From Phycisphaeraceae bacterium (GTDB taxonomy: Bacteria > Planctomycetota > Phycisphaerae > Phycisphaerales > SM1A02), in contig CP054178.1 of the NCBI GenBank assembly GCA_015709595.1, forward strand, positions 620,001 to 684,000: a stretch of DNA of 64,000 bases, read 5' to 3'. This document shows, piece after piece, positions 3,659-23,877 of the stretch; position 1 is the stretch's first letter, and the number at the start of each line of letters is the position of its first letter. A program made the position numbers and the translations under genes. The notes under the pieces are model-generated. The model was not told where the DNA came from. It ran no database searches and saw only the letters and a list, made by a program, of their open reading frames with translations.

Positions 3659-3700
3659 TCGCCTCGCAACGCAACCCAGTTCGCCGTCCGACATCCCGAT

Positions 3701-3720
3701 TCATCCGTGTTCATCCGTGG
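3701..3720 (+). repeat. 10-bp tandem repeat (TCATCCGTGK x2)
   Basis: TCATCCGTGT followed directly by TCATCCGTGG, just upstream of the rlmE start. The same 10-bp unit builds the long inverted repeat at 21855-21946, so this is a short copy of a dispersed element. Confidence 0.6.
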
Positions 3721-19567: not shown

Positions 19568-19637
19568 GTGGGGGAAGGGGTGAGGGGTGAGCCACCCGGA
19601 GGAAGGCACTGGGCACGAGGCATCAGGCACTGGGCAG
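19568..19637 (+). repeat. Composite repeat: conserved head plus heptads GGCAYNN
   Basis: The head at 19568-19596 (G-rich, then GTGAGCCACC) is followed by heptads GGCACTG, GGCACGA, GGCATCA, GGCACTG, GGCA from 19605. A clearly related copy with the same head-then-heptads order lies at 28347-28442, and a shorter one at 21131-21171. It is part of the 355-base region upstream of nuoD, which holds no gene; TACACT at 19543-19548 is the only promoter-like hexamer noted there. Confidence 0.75.
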
Positions 19638-19694
19638 ATTGACTACTCGCGCAGCACACAGCACTCGGCACCTCGCACGCAGTACTCCTCCGAT

Positions 19695-19721
19695 GGTGGG
19701 CCTCGAAGCATCGGCCCACCC
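19695..19721 (+). repeat. Interspersed palindromic repeat, copy A
   Basis: 27-base element with 8-bp arms (GGTGGGCC and GGCCCACC) around TCGAAGCATC. The reverse complement of 27399-27425 matches it at 26 of 27 positions. Confidence 0.75.
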
Positions 19722-19757
19722 TACAAGAACCCACGAAACTCGGAGTTCGGAACTCCA

Positions 19758-19815
19758 CTCAGTCCTCAGTCCTCAGTCCTGACGCCCCAGCACTCAGCAC
19801 CCAGCACCCAGCACT
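19758..19815 (+). repeat. Two adjacent heptad arrays (CTCAGTC x3; CAGCACY x4)
   Basis: CTCAGTC occurs three times from 19758 and then degenerates; CAGCACT, CAGCACC, CAGCACC, CAGCACT run at 19788-19815. Both are in 7-base register and end 22 bases before nuoD. Confidence 0.75.
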
Positions 19816-19837: not shown

Positions 19838-21130
19838 ATGCCCTTCACGCTCAAGAAAGATCAGGCCGCCTACGGCATCGACATCGAGTCCACGGAGTAT
19901 CTGCGCGAGCACGTGGATGCCCCGGATCGGTGGGTGCTCAACTTCGGGCCGCAGCATCCCGCCACGCACACCACGCTGCGGCTGGTGCTGGAGCTGGACG
20001 GCGAGCGCATCGCCCGCTGCACGCCGCACATCGGCTACCTGCATTCGGGCTTCGAGAAGCTGGGCGAGCACCACAACTACAACCAGTACGTCTGCACCAT
20101 CAGCCGGATGGACTATATCTCGCCGATCGCCAACGACATCGCGTGGCATCACGCGGTGGAGACGCTGTTCGGCATCGACCTGACGCCCCGCTGCAAGGTG
20201 CTGCGGACGATCATGGCCGAACTGGGCCGCATCCAGAACCATCTGCTGTGCGTGGGGGCGGCGGCGCTGGACCTGGGGGCCTTCACCGGCTTCCTGTACG
20301 GCTTCAACGAGCGCGAGAACATCTACGACATCGTGGACTACATTTCCGGCCAGCGCTTCCACCCCGACTGGACGCGCGTGGGCGGGCTGATGCGCGACCT
20401 GCCCGATCAGGCGACCTTCCAGAAGATGGTCCGCAACGTCATTGACAAGCGCCTGCCCAAGGCCATCACCGACATCGAGACGCTGCTGAACACCAACCGC
20501 ATCTTTCTCGATCGCACGCGCGGCGTGGGCACGATCTCACGCGAGGAGGCGGTCGCCTGGTCGCTCACCGGCCCGATCGCCCGGGCCTCGGGCGTCAAGC
20601 GCGACCTGCGCAAGGATGAGCCGTATCTGTGCTACAAGGACAACTGGGATGGACAGGGGGCCAAGGCGGTGCAGTTCAAGGTGCCCGTATCCAACGAGGG
20701 CGACTCCCTGGCCCGCTACCTCGTCCGCGTCGAGGAGATCAAGCAGTCGATGCACATCATCGACCAACTGATCGACGCCATCCCCGACGGTCCCGTGGAC
20801 GCCTACGCCGACGGCAAGACGCGGCTGCCCGAGAAGGCGGACGTGTACGGCTCGATCGAGGCGCTCATCCAGCACTTCGAACTGGTCATGACCAACCGCG
20901 GCTGGGACACGCCCGTGGCCGAGTGCTACGCGGCCCAGGAAACGGCCAACGGCGAGCTGGGGTACTACATCGTCGCCGACGGCACCAAGTGCCCGTGGCG
21001 GGTGTCCGTGAGGCCGCCCTCGTTCATCCACTTCCAGGTGCTCCCCAAGTTGATCGAGGGGCACCAGCTGGCGGACGTGGTCGCGGTGCTGGGGTCGCTG
21101 AATATCATCGCGGCGGAGTTGGATCGGTGA
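19838..21130 (+). CDS. nuoD: NADH-quinone oxidoreductase subunit D (49-kDa)
   Basis: 430 residues. This peripheral-arm subunit of complex I helps form the quinone site. Family landmarks: NFGPQHPATHTTLRLVLELDG near the N-terminus, YLHSGFEKLGEHHNYNQY, ELGRIQNHLL, the RGVGTISREEAVAWSLTGPIARASGVKRDLR segment and the C-terminal GELGYYIVADGTKCPWRV. The hydrogenase Ni-binding cysteines are absent, as expected for NuoD. The ATG at 19838 has no clear Shine-Dalgarno. nuoE and nuoF follow on the same strand, but nuoA-C and nuoG-N are not in the window. Confidence 0.96.
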   Translation: MPFTLKKDQAAYGIDIESTEYLREHVDAPDRWVLNFGPQHPATHTTLRLVLELDGERIARCTPHIGYLHSGFEKLGEHHNYNQYVCTISRMDYISPIANDIAWHHAVETLFGIDLTPRCKVLRTIMAELGRIQNHLLCVGAAALDLGAFTGFLYGFNERENIYDIVDYISGQRFHPDWTRVGGLMRDLPDQATFQKMVRNVIDKRLPKAITDIETLLNTNRIFLDRTRGVGTISREEAVAWSLTGPIARASGVKRDLRKDEPYLCYKDNWDGQGAKAVQFKVPVSNEGDSLARYLVRVEEIKQSMHIIDQLIDAIPDGPVDAYADGKTRLPEKADVYGSIEALIQHFELVMTNRGWDTPVAECYAAQETANGELGYYIVADGTKCPWRVSVRPPSFIHFQVLPKLIEGHQLADVVAVLGSLNIIAAELDR

Positions 21131-21143
21131 GGTGAGGGGAGAA

Positions 21144-21238
21144 GGCATTGGGCACTCGGCATCAGGCACGAGTGCGTCATGAAACCGTTGTGTTCCGGAG
21201 TTCCCACCCCAGTGCCTAGTGCCCAGTGCCTAGTGCCT
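21144..21238 (+). repeat. Inverted pair of heptad arrays between nuoD and nuoE
   Basis: GGCATTG, GGCACTC, GGCATCA, GGCACGA at 21144-21171, then AGTGCCT, AGTGCCC, AGTGCCT, AGTGCCT at 21211-21238. The second array is the complement of AGGCACT/GGGCACT, so the two can pair imperfectly across a ~40-base loop. Confidence 0.75.
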
Positions 21239-21254
21239 ATCGCGAAGCAAACCC

Positions 21255-21812
21255 ATGGCCTGGATCGTCAAACCCAGTGCGACAATGACCATCGAGCGGC
21301 GGAAGGAGCCCTACCTGACGCCGCAGATGAAACAGCGCTTCACCGAGGTCATCCTGCCTCGATACGAAACGAAGCTCGGCGCCCTCATGCCCATCCTGCA
21401 TGAGGTGCAGCACCACTACGGCTGCATCCCTCACCAGGCGCAGGAGGAGATCGCCGCGTTCCTGGAGATCACGCCTGGCGACGTGCTCGACACCGTGTCG
21501 TTCTACGAGGAGTACCACATCGAGCCGCGCGGCAGGTACACCATCGGCGTGTGCCAGTCGATCGCCTGTGATGTCTGCAGCCCCAGTTGCGGCGAGATCA
21601 TTGATCACCTTCGTGAGAAACTCGGCATCGAACCTCACGAGACGACGGAGGATGGAAAGTTCACGCTGCTGGCGATGGAATGCCTCGGCTCCTGCGGCAC
21701 CGCGCCGGTGGCGCTGGTGAACGAAGATCTGCACGAGGGGCTGACGATCGAGAAGCTGGATGCGATCATCGACTCGCTGGCGGCGGAAGACGACAAACCA
21801 CAGAGGCACTGA
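21255..21812 (+). CDS. nuoE: NADH-quinone oxidoreductase subunit E (24-kDa, [2Fe-2S])
   Basis: 185 residues. It carries the N1a-type [2Fe-2S] cluster next to NuoF. Cluster ligands follow the family spacing: C100 and C105 (GVCQSIACD) and C143 and C147 (MECLGSCGTAP). The helical N-terminal half (KQRFTEVILPRYETKLGALM, VQHHYGCIPHQAQEEIAAFL) is typical. ATG 21255 or ATG 21285 (MTIERRKEPY) could be the start. The last residues KPQRH and the stop are encoded by the left arm of a long inverted repeat (21797-21985). Downstream are a 76-aa gene and nuoF. Confidence 0.94.
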   Translation: MAWIVKPSATMTIERRKEPYLTPQMKQRFTEVILPRYETKLGALMPILHEVQHHYGCIPHQAQEEIAAFLEITPGDVLDTVSFYEEYHIEPRGRYTIGVCQSIACDVCSPSCGEIIDHLREKLGIEPHETTEDGKFTLLAMECLGSCGTAPVALVNEDLHEGLTIEKLDAIIDSLAAEDDKPQRH

Positions 21813-21985
21813 AGGGAAGAGAGCAGGAGAACAGGAAAACAGGAGAACAGGAATGGAACCACGGATGAACACAGATGCACACGGATGAGGGGCGCGGCGA
21901 ACGGACCTCTTCTTATCCGTGTTCATCTGTGTTCATCCGTGGTTCCTTCTCCGGGTTTTCTCTGTGTCGTCAGTGCCTCTGTGGT
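21797..21985 (+). repeat. Nested inverted repeat between nuoE and the 76-aa gene
   Basis: Outer arms: a perfect 16-bp inverted repeat, ACCACAGAGGCACTGA at 21797-21812 (including the nuoE stop) and its complement at 21970-21985. Inner arms: 32 bases at 21855-21886 and 21915-21946 with one mismatch, built from ~10-bp units (TTCATCCGTG/TTCATCTGTG). Between the left arms lies a purine-rich AACAGGAR array (about 21822-21852) with an 8-bp period. Transcribed RNA could fold into one long hairpin. Confidence 0.85.
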
Positions 21986-21998
21986 GAATCCTCCGATC

Positions 21999-22229
21999 AT
22001 GTCCAAGTCCAAGTCCATCTCGCGTTCGCTGGGCGAGTTTCTCGGTCACATCTTTCGCGGCGTGCGTACGAAGGTGGATGACAAGGGCCGCGTCATTCCG
22101 CCGGAGCAGGTGAAGCGAACGGAGGTCCGCCGCACCGTGGAGGAGGAGAAGCAGGGCGAGCACGTCATCCTGCGGCGGACGACGATCGAGGAAGTGGAAG
22201 TGCGGAGATCCGACGCCGGATCGGCGTGA
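21999..22229 (+). CDS. Small basic protein in the nuo cluster, 76 aa
   Basis: MSKSKSISRSLGEFLGHIFRG and onward: a basic, amphipathic N-terminus followed by a charged, Glu/Arg/Val-rich C-terminal half with alternating pattern (KRTEVRRTVEEEKQGEHVI, LRRTTIEEVEVRR) likely to form strands or a helix. No known domain recognised and no signal peptide. The frame stays open upstream to 21885 but that part is repeat DNA, so ATG 21999 is chosen. Its position between nuoE and nuoF on the same strand suggests a link to complex I or its assembly, which is inference only. Confidence 0.6.
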   Translation: MSKSKSISRSLGEFLGHIFRGVRTKVDDKGRVIPPEQVKRTEVRRTVEEEKQGEHVILRRTTIEEVEVRRSDAGSA

Positions 22230-22506
22230 ACCGTACCCGATGCCGCGTCACGTCGTTTGAATCACCTGGAGCACACCCATCGGCGCGAGATGCCGATCCG
22301 TTGACCAGCACGTCCGGTCGTGCCGTCGGTGCATCAGGTCCAGCCCACGGCTTCGACAGGCGTGAGCCGCGGATGGTTCAGGGTGGGACGCCTGTCGCGA
22401 ACCGGGTTCACGCAGGCATCGTCGGAGTTGCGCCGCAGGCGGCGCACCTCACGCGAGATGTTGACGCGGTGACCGGGCGGCGACTGCCTCCGGAGCACGA
22501 ATCTCC

Positions 22507-22512
22507 TACACT
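22507..22512 (+). promoter_or_regulatory. -10 box of nuoF, leaderless arrangement
   Basis: TACACT ends 6 bases before ATG 22519. No -35 match and no Shine-Dalgarno are evident, so nuoF may have its own promoter and a leaderless mRNA instead of being read only from nuoD/E. The 289-base gap before it contains a GC-rich hairpin (22429-22446) without a T-tract and no gene. Confidence 0.5.
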
Positions 22513-22518
22513 TTCCCC

Positions 22519-23877
22519 ATGCCCATGAACGCTCCCGTTCTGACCCAGCGCATCCCCACCTGGCCCTTCGCCGACCCCAAGGGTCGGCACATCGTCTCCT
22601 ATGACGAGTACATCAAGACCGGCGGCTATCAGGCCCTCGAAAAGGCCCTGAGCATGGACCCAGCGGCCATCGTCGATGAGGTCAAGAAGTCGCAGCTCCG
22701 CGGGCGCGGCGGGGCGGGTTTCCCCTGCGGACTCAAGTGGACCTTCCTGCCCAAGCCCGACGGCGGCCGCCGCTACCTCGCCATCAACTGCGATGAGGCC
22801 GAACCGGGCACGTTCAAGGATCGCCTGCTCATCGACTTCGACCCCCATCTCGTCCTCGAAGGCATCGCCATCGCCTGCTACGCCTGCCGCCTGGATACGG
22901 CGTACTTCTTCATCCGCGGCGAGTACCACCACCAGGCCAAGGTGGTCGAGAACGCCATCCGCGAGGCGTATGACAAGGGCATCTTCGGGAAGAAAGGCCT
23001 GATGAACGGCAAGAGCGACTTCGCCGTGGAGTGCTACGTGCACCGCAGCGCGGGGGCGTACATCTGCGGCGAGGAGACCGGCCTGCTCGAAGCCATCGAG
23101 GGCAAGCGCGGCTGGCCGCGCGTCAAGCCGCCCTTCCCGGCGGTGAAGGGGCTCTTCCAGCGGCCCACCATCATCAACAACGTCGAGACGCTGGCGTACG
23201 TGCCCTTCATCGTGCAGAACGGGGCCGACGCGTTCAGCAAGATGGGCTGCGTCTCGCGCTACCCCAACAGCGCGCCGAGCTTCGGGTCCAAACTCATGGG
23301 CATGTCGGGCCACGTCAACCGGCCTGGCGTCTACGAGCTTGACCTGGGCATCACCCTGCGCGACTTCGTGGAGAAGCACTGCGGCGGGATGCGCGGCGGC
23401 AAGAGGTTCAAGGGTGCGATTCCCGGCGGCGTCTCCATGGGCGTGCTGGGAACGGACCAGTACGACGCTCCGCTCGACTTCGACATCGGCCGCGAATACC
23501 AGGTGCTGGGGCTGGGCACCGCCTGCCCCACGGTGTTCGATGAGGACACCGACATGGTCGCCGTGTGCCGCAACATCGTGCGGTTCTTCAAGAACGAGTC
23601 GTGCGGTCAGTGCACCCCCTGCCGCGAGGGCGCGGGCTGGCTGTTCAAACTCATCACTCGCATCGAGCGGGGCGACGCCACCAGCAAGGATCTCGACCTG
23701 CTGCTGGAGATCGCCGGTTCGATGGGCACCATGCCCGGCACCACGATCTGCGGACTGGCCGATGGCAACAACTGGGCGGTGCGGACGATCGTCAACAAGT
23801 TCCGGGCGGAGTTCGAAGCCCGGTGCCGGCGCCAGTTCGTGCCCGTGGGCGTGCCGGTGACGGTGGGCGCTTCGTAA
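22519..23877 (+). CDS. nuoF: NADH-quinone oxidoreductase subunit F (51-kDa, FMN, [4Fe-4S])
   Basis: 452 residues. This is the NADH-oxidising subunit of complex I. The NADH/FMN-binding region has RGRGGAGFPCGLKW and NCDEAEPGTFKDR, then GAYICGEETGLLEAIEGKRG and RPTIINNVETLAYVP. The N3 [4Fe-4S] ligands are in SCGQCTPCREG (about residues 361-371), with the distal cysteine in TTICGLAD. Length is normal. ATG 22519 and ATG 22525 are both possible; the first is 6 bases after a TACACT box. It is the last gene of the nuo group here; nuoG is not adjacent, and the next genes are on the opposite strand. Confidence 0.96.
   Translation: MPMNAPVLTQRIPTWPFADPKGRHIVSYDEYIKTGGYQALEKALSMDPAAIVDEVKKSQLRGRGGAGFPCGLKWTFLPKPDGGRRYLAINCDEAEPGTFKDRLLIDFDPHLVLEGIAIACYACRLDTAYFFIRGEYHHQAKVVENAIREAYDKGIFGKKGLMNGKSDFAVECYVHRSAGAYICGEETGLLEAIEGKRGWPRVKPPFPAVKGLFQRPTIINNVETLAYVPFIVQNGADAFSKMGCVSRYPNSAPSFGSKLMGMSGHVNRPGVYELDLGITLRDFVEKHCGGMRGGKRFKGAIPGGVSMGVLGTDQYDAPLDFDIGREYQVLGLGTACPTVFDEDTDMVAVCRNIVRFFKNESCGQCTPCREGAGWLFKLITRIERGDATSKDLDLLLEIAGSMGTMPGTTICGLADGNNWAVRTIVNKFRAEFEARCRRQFVPVGVPVTVGAS

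Follow-up and report, generated by a model that had tools for sequence, protein, structure and literature searches.

Cyanobacterial STRR repeats and the long simple sequence repeats are of the same kind. Among the latter, the TAACTGA heptamers of Beggiatoaceae, cyanobacteria and Bacteroidetes are described as short and mostly intergenic arrays that are common to distant lineages and have no evident mechanism of spreading (PMC4679880). Of the cases described in the literature consulted, these come closest as regards sharing between lineages (PMC4679880). REPs are reported to bind proteins and to take part in transcription termination (PMC2817692, PMC3733652).

Our analysis of a Phycisphaeraceae genome identified an insert with a likeness to both groups. 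It lies in the gap between nuoE and a 76-aa gene, at positions 21797-21985 of the window (the whole 64,000-nt stretch of DNA that was analysed), and is built of two inverted pairs, one nested in the other. We consider it rather probable that the insert is a non-coding interspersed mosaic element and a member of a widely scattered class of intergenic head-in arrays with units mostly of 7-10 bp, often with one pair nested in another, a class that would have spread horizontally.

Architecture and genomic context of the nuo element

The genes nuoD (19838-21130), nuoE (21255-21812, 185 aa), the 76-aa gene (21999-22229) and nuoF (22519-23877) are all located on the plus strand, to which the positions of the arms and arrays described below also refer unless stated otherwise. 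The left outer arm of the element (21797-21812) is 16 nt long and 100% complementary to the right outer arm (21970-21985), its perfect reverse complement. By eye, it is similar to about 1.5 units of the 9-bp CACAGAG family, here called R1. The left outer arm holds the nuoE stop codon TGA (21810-21812) and codes for the last residues, PQRH. It is followed by an 8-bp array between the left arms (21819-21852, about four units of GAGAACAG) and by the left inner arm (21855-21889), which comprises about three 10-bp units of the ACGGATGAAC family, here called R2. A loop without assigned strand (21890-21911) separates it from the right inner arm (21912-21946), an R2 array in reverse complement. The inner arms are 94% complementary over these 35 nt and show one mismatch in their 32-nt version (21855-21886 and 21915-21946). 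The segment between the right inner and the right outer arm (21947-21969, no strand assigned) pairs in part with the 8-bp array in the predicted fold. Recalculation thus reproduced the nested inverted repeat of the initial annotation, with outer arms of 16 nt that match perfectly and a single mismatch in the inner arms of 32 nt, as well as its claim that the element supplies the stop codon and the last four residues of nuoE.

Further arrays are present in the window, where tandem units of 7, 8 and 10 bp occur. A second inverted array element, made of 7-bp arrays, is located in the nuoD-nuoE gap (21143-21239, with the left array starting at 21143 and the right array at 21208-21239), and more 7-bp arrays lie upstream of nuoD (19604-19814, namely 19604-19636, 19758-19780 and 19786-19814); the initial annotation had named neither these 7-bp arrays nor the 8-bp array of the element. 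The recurrence of the 10-bp unit at 3700-3719, already noticed in the initial annotation, corresponds to a single-armed copy of the R2 array (3700-3720, minus strand) directly upstream of an FtsJ-like methyltransferase gene. The tetranucleotide GTAG occurs 196 times in the whole window compared to 102 times expected from dinucleotide shuffles, perhaps due to a codon effect.

NuoE was found in 60 of the 61 genomes searched, and the loci read for comparison are the best 29 of 60 relatives by NuoE match, all from the same family or the same order. The 76-aa ORF, whose product matched no Pfam or NCBIfam family at E 0.01, was rightly taken as a real gene, since its motif is found downstream of nuoE in 28 of the 29 relatives and the gene adjoins nuoE there too. 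Relative to the relatives examined, the element is, judged by sequence comparison, an insertion in this lineage, because the gap between nuoE and the 76-aa gene amounts to 186 nt here versus at most 62 nt in 26 of the 28 relatives measured. The two relatives with wider gaps are L054 (116 nt, with a doubtful start call) and L035 (219 nt), where the locus lies at a contig end with adapter-like sequence upstream and without an array pair. No array element was detected at the nuoE/76-aa site in the 29 relatives. The length of NuoE varies from 173 to 199 aa among relatives, and its C-terminus is therefore free to vary. The sequence upstream of nuoE in L035 (end of contig 57 of G026), which we take to resemble an Illumina adapter, is perhaps assembly contamination.

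The nuoD-nuoE gap was measured in all but two of the 29 relatives. Besides the own genome, inverted arrays are present in this gap in L034, L039, L040 and L051, though the array families differ. In 21 of the 29 relatives the gap is 8 to 72 nt long and contains no inverted array pair, and the gaps of L032 and L045 (106 and 116 nt) have no pair at the threshold.

Distribution and organisation of related arrays

Searches of the own genome with a two-unit R2 pattern gave 20 exact sites versus 0 for the reversed control, and a looser R2 pattern gave 35. By eye, two other loci (L003 and L004) carry R1 outside and R2 inside like the nuo element, with different intervening material, and L006 and L021 represent two copies of one whole element. 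A scan of 20 own-genome stretches of 20 kb revealed 18 inverted pairs with a score of at least 15 versus 0 in first-order Markov sequence modelled on these stretches, which is more than chance; the stretches were spaced by hand and three contain array sites known beforehand, which makes the sample not neutral. About five of the 18 pairs are array elements (three of them known before), while the others come from different palindromic families. A further clustered palindromic repeat, GTGTGCCACGGCCGT.TCGGCCGTG, was observed at L141 and L142.

Outside the own genome, an exact 29-mer of the R2 family, CCACGGATGAACACGGATGAACACGGATG, was found in 74 stretches of 50 genome records, with one genome each for 84,980 species; most of these 74 loci lie on MAG contigs that could be misbinned, and ten stem from one MAG. 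Records were counted by accession prefix and phyla assigned from record titles. On this basis most records belong to Planctomycetota, Verrucomicrobiota and Acidobacteriota, and others to Bacteroidota, Chloroflexota, Pseudomonadota, Deltaproteobacteria, Riflebacteria, Latescibacteria, Spirochaetota (Treponema) and one Methanosarcinaceae archaeon, a span of about ten bacterial phyla and an archaeon. Among the records not marked as MAG are Geothrix fermentans DSM 14018, Arenimonas caeni z29 and Thiohalobacter thiocyanaticus Hrh1. That such elements form a family reaching many phyla was beyond what the initial annotation could see. The looser R2 pattern was absent from 46 of 60 relatives, and a strict two-arm hairpin pattern, which misses the own element too and is thus too strict to inform, was present in 1 of 294 genomes of the phylum. 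The class is therefore patchy.

The arrays prefer a head-in arrangement. Within 500 nt of the 74 loci, some of which are cut at contig ends, a reverse-complement array was located on the inner side only in 44 cases, on the outer side only in 2, on both sides in 2 and on neither side in 26. The genome G045 contains 208 R1 sites, and 28 stretches of it, picked for holding R1 sites and with arrays of 9-bp units, yielded 24 head-in pairs and 1 head-out pair. The head-in excess corresponds to binomial p-values of 3e-11 (44 vs 2) and 1.5e-6 (24 vs 1), with the restriction that loci within one genome are not independent. An exception is G025, where R2 pairs are head-out in many cases and separated by a nearly constant distance; some of these pairs are junctions of tandem copies. 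The assumption that the inward-reading strand is always purine-rich was not upheld throughout.

The core class (CAC or CGC) is the same in both arms in 21 of the 24 pairs of G045 (p 2e-4), and the two-base spacers match across arms in 7 of 36 cases versus a shuffle mean of 6.8. Since these spacer matches are at chance level, neither arm is simply a copy of the other in this genome, and there is no sign of selection keeping spacer pairing. Near-perfect long arms are present in the window element, L089 and L108; other elements may therefore have copied arms. Different unit families of like build occur both in the 74-locus set and in relatives, and nesting is seen in both orders, with R1 outside in the own genome and G045, and R2 outside in L080 and L128. 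By eye, the loops of five G045 elements (L247, L248, L282, L299 and L301) harbour recurring modules inside the R1 hairpins and thus a third nesting level, including ATTGATG-like arrays and variants of a CCGGTCGC..GCGACCGG palindrome. One Phycisphaeraceae MAG carries five complete copies with common outer flanks and a sixth that is cut at a contig end. Among the complete copies, the left array ranges from two to six units and the loop differs in one case; the elements may therefore be copied whole, undergo slippage and exchange their loops.

With respect to genes, the 74 multi-phylum loci are distributed as follows, according to a simple codon-usage caller written for this analysis: called genes contain 8 of them, codirectional gaps 34, convergent gaps 10 and divergent gaps 8, while 14 are at contig edges. 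The share within called genes (8 of the 60 assessable loci) compares with a coding fraction of 0.85, and the placement is thus mostly intergenic. In G045, none of the 24 elements is inside a called gene, and 20 of the 23 assessable ones are in codirectional gaps versus 97 of 140 background gaps of at least 40 nt. For 16 own-genome loci and 65 viral flanks, this caller gave positions inside genes in 4 and 22 cases, respectively.

Array sequences are also present in viral records, as an R2 26-mer in 11 and an R1 26-mer in at least 120 viral stretches. Among the 80 viral loci listed, almost every R1 array has a single arm, with 3 inward pairs in 134 arrays. By k-mer likeness, 83 viral R1 matches were reduced to 34 clusters, which may still have common ancestry. 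A stop triplet directly precedes the array in 24 of the 34 clusters, a called gene ends 0-1 nt before it in 8, and 13 are inside called genes. In eight of the viral contigs, ten proteins were compared with PHROGs and ten with Pfam. They included one Mu-type transposase, one terminase large subunit, one DnaB helicase and two virion-like proteins, one of them weakly so, while 3 of 10 had no PHROG match. These matches indicate that some of the contigs are viral. Copies of the whole element were not found in plasmids or phages. Short consensus sequences used as queries had weak hits in 1 cyanobacterial plasmid and in 8 phage records; in 5 of the phage records the match spanned at least 80% of the query.

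Possible functions and routes of spreading

We propose that mosaic elements of this type would spread horizontally, with viruses as one possible carrier, and that they would be copied by host functions or by a further enzyme, while the arrays would grow and shrink through slippage. The nuo hairpin would be transcribed together with its neighbours and tolerated, and any influence on the nuo mRNA would be no more than a side effect. More tentatively, the arrays could represent a distinct class of mobile non-coding DNA of bacteria and viruses, in which a vocabulary of 7- to 10-bp words in nested head-in arrays is passed between phyla, possibly by viruses, and settles at gene junctions. Mobility would then depend neither on Y1 enzymes nor on known reverse transcriptases, but on another enzyme or a replication-repair route. 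We regard this extended reading as possible, yet as clearly less probable than that of an interspersed mosaic element. Provided that the class is real and mobile, such intergenic elements are widespread, and their maker could be searched for by comparing array-rich with array-free relatives.

A local role was the reading of the initial annotation, in which the hairpin could attenuate expression of the 76-aa gene or protect the nuoDE mRNA. In agreement with a functional RNA hairpin of the nuo operon, the predicted fold is very stable, as had been claimed (-116.9 kcal/mol and z -11.3 as RNA, z -10.9 as DNA, versus dinucleotide shuffles), and the neighbouring genes are codirectional, with no promoter-like site in 21650-22100 and no intrinsic-terminator-like site (a GC-rich hairpin with a T run) on either strand of this region. 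In addition, G045 elements in codirectional gaps are nearer to the upstream stop in 19 of 20 cases. However, the corresponding number for the multi-phylum set is 20 of 34, and the 3' preference is not general. The hairpin reading is further weakened by the lack of an array element at the nuoE site in the 29 relatives, by the very lack of a terminator-like site, and by the inter-core spacers of G045, which match across arms no better than chance. Attenuation or mRNA protection is therefore unsupported so far. An intrinsic terminator was rejected on the basis of the scan of 21650-22100, and a known RNA family on that of 0 matches to Rfam families at gathering score in 21000-23000. A functional hairpin is thus unlikely; the element is not a conserved nuo regulator, and we think that the hairpin is tolerated rather than selected.

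Slightly less likely again is a function of the arrays as sequence-specific sites for a candidate DNA- or RNA-binding protein, with which they would serve as linkers at gene junctions. Such binding would fit the constant cores with variable spacers, the agreement in core class in 21 of 24 G045 pairs, and the viral clusters, in which the array directly follows a stop triplet (24 of 34) or a gene end at 0-1 nt (8). It is at odds with the great differences in copy number among relatives, with the existence of several unrelated array families of like build, and with the 13 of 34 viral clusters that are inside called genes.

For a REP/BIME-type element moved by a RAYT-like Y1 transposase, the evidence from the array-rich genomes is divided. 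The build resembles that of BIMEs, and over 61 genomes the Y1_Tnp counts correlate with the R1 counts (rho 0.45, p 2e-4) and weakly with the R2 counts (rho 0.29, p 0.02); these values are uncorrected for relatedness or genome size, and low R1 counts are near the reversed-control background of 0 to 4 per genome and strand. Y1 matches are numerous in G045, which has most R1 sites (7, no RVT_1), and in the likewise array-rich G056 (8, with one RVT_1) and G036 (19, with one RVT_1). By contrast, neither Y1_Tnp nor RVT_1 was matched in G025, which contains most R2 sites (56) and whose draft has a completeness rating of 94%; in the own genome, with its 35 R2 sites, RVT_1 has no match and Y1 a single weak one, located inside valS. 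Furthermore, 18 of 20 Y1 loci (6 of 7 from G045, 12 of 19 from G036, 1 of 8 from G056 and 1 of 1 from the own genome) lack an R1/R2-like array in their flanks, a weak test, as about 0.23 R1 sites are expected per 4.4 kb in G045. The absence of GTAG between 21503 and 22506 and the inner arms, which are unfolded when taken alone, also argue against this reading, which we judge improbable. Y1 mobilisation is dispensable in G025, but the correlation of the counts keeps it among the alternatives. Because of the Y1 and RVT_1 evidence across the array-rich genomes, we prefer a BIME-like mosaic element that would be copied by host or other functions.

The single Y1 match of the own genome is an observation of its own. 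At 1388-5419 of L452 (C1 of G000, 3835387-3839418), a Y1 (IS200-like, HUH) transposase domain is located in frame inside valyl-tRNA synthetase, in a frame of 1343 aa with the Pfam domains tRNA-synt_1, Y1_Tnp, Anticodon_1 and Val_tRNA-synt_C. The same arrangement is present in 4 of 5 relatives fetched (L453, with a Y1 score of 22.7 just below the cut-off of 23, L454, L455 and L457), while L456 is without such a frame. A literature search on a Y1 domain inside valyl-tRNA synthetase found nothing. Another interspersed repeat family, around GGTCGCGGCTCGCTCACGG / CGCTCCCTCACGGTCGCGGCTC, was observed at L006, L016, L021 and L025 of the own genome. Since its 'SLTVAA' reading recurs in the valS frame beside the Y1 domain, it may be the partner repeat of the valS-embedded Y1 protein.

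A telomerase-like reverse transcriptase that copies a template onto both ends of a break would account for the head-in rule, the common core and the unlinked spacers. It has nevertheless a very small probability: the own genome, G025 and G045 lack an RVT_1 match, RVT_1 counts do not correlate with R1 or R2 counts, and the mechanism is largely refuted for enzymes that the RVT_1 model detects, although drafts can miss a gene. An assembly error or contamination, in line with the predominance of MAG contigs among the 74 loci, is hardly credible, as many copies that differ from each other are present on the single contig of the own genome, and isolate records carry CCACGGATGAACACGGATGAACACGGATG.

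Comparison with known repeat classes

As a probable interspersed mosaic element, the nuo insert shares features with several known systems. With intrinsic terminators and attenuators it has in common a strong hairpin between codirectional genes, but the scan revealed no terminator-like site, and the element was not found at this site in relatives. The existence of such a class is also a warning not to take every hairpin of this type for a local regulator. The five complete copies with common flanks in one genome are reminiscent of MITEs. While MITEs have terminal inverted repeats, a target-site duplication and a related transposase, neither a transposase nor a target-site duplication was identified here.

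The likeness to REP, BIME and REPIN sequences goes further and includes short interspersed extragenic units, inverted and mosaic arrangement and hairpin potential. However, REPs of the GTAG type have this motif at the palindrome end, whereas here the nearest GTAG matches, with both strands considered, are those at 21503 and 22506. REP and REPIN units are imperfect palindromes, while the inner arms are tandem arrays; the minimum free energy as DNA is 0 for both inner arms and for the 8-bp array, and -1.3 kcal/mol for the left outer arm. In addition, REPs and BIMEs are tied to RAYT (Y1) genes, but no enrichment of arrays was observed beside Y1 genes at the 20 loci, though the counts correlate. 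No literature with any of five R1/R2 sequence strings was found, and nested head-in arrays are not described in the titles and abstract openings of the literature searched, which does not prove that no description exists.

In unit length, the 7-, 8- and 10-bp arrays of the window and the 9-bp R1 arrays are within the range of 5-11 nt of long simple sequence repeats and STRR sequences. The TAACTGA sets consist of direct repeats, and a single inverted case is reported (PMC4679880), whereas the arrays described here form head-in pairs that are often nested. Identical 29-mers, often in the same head-in arrangement, in unrelated phyla are explained neither by ordinary descent nor by the known repeat classes.
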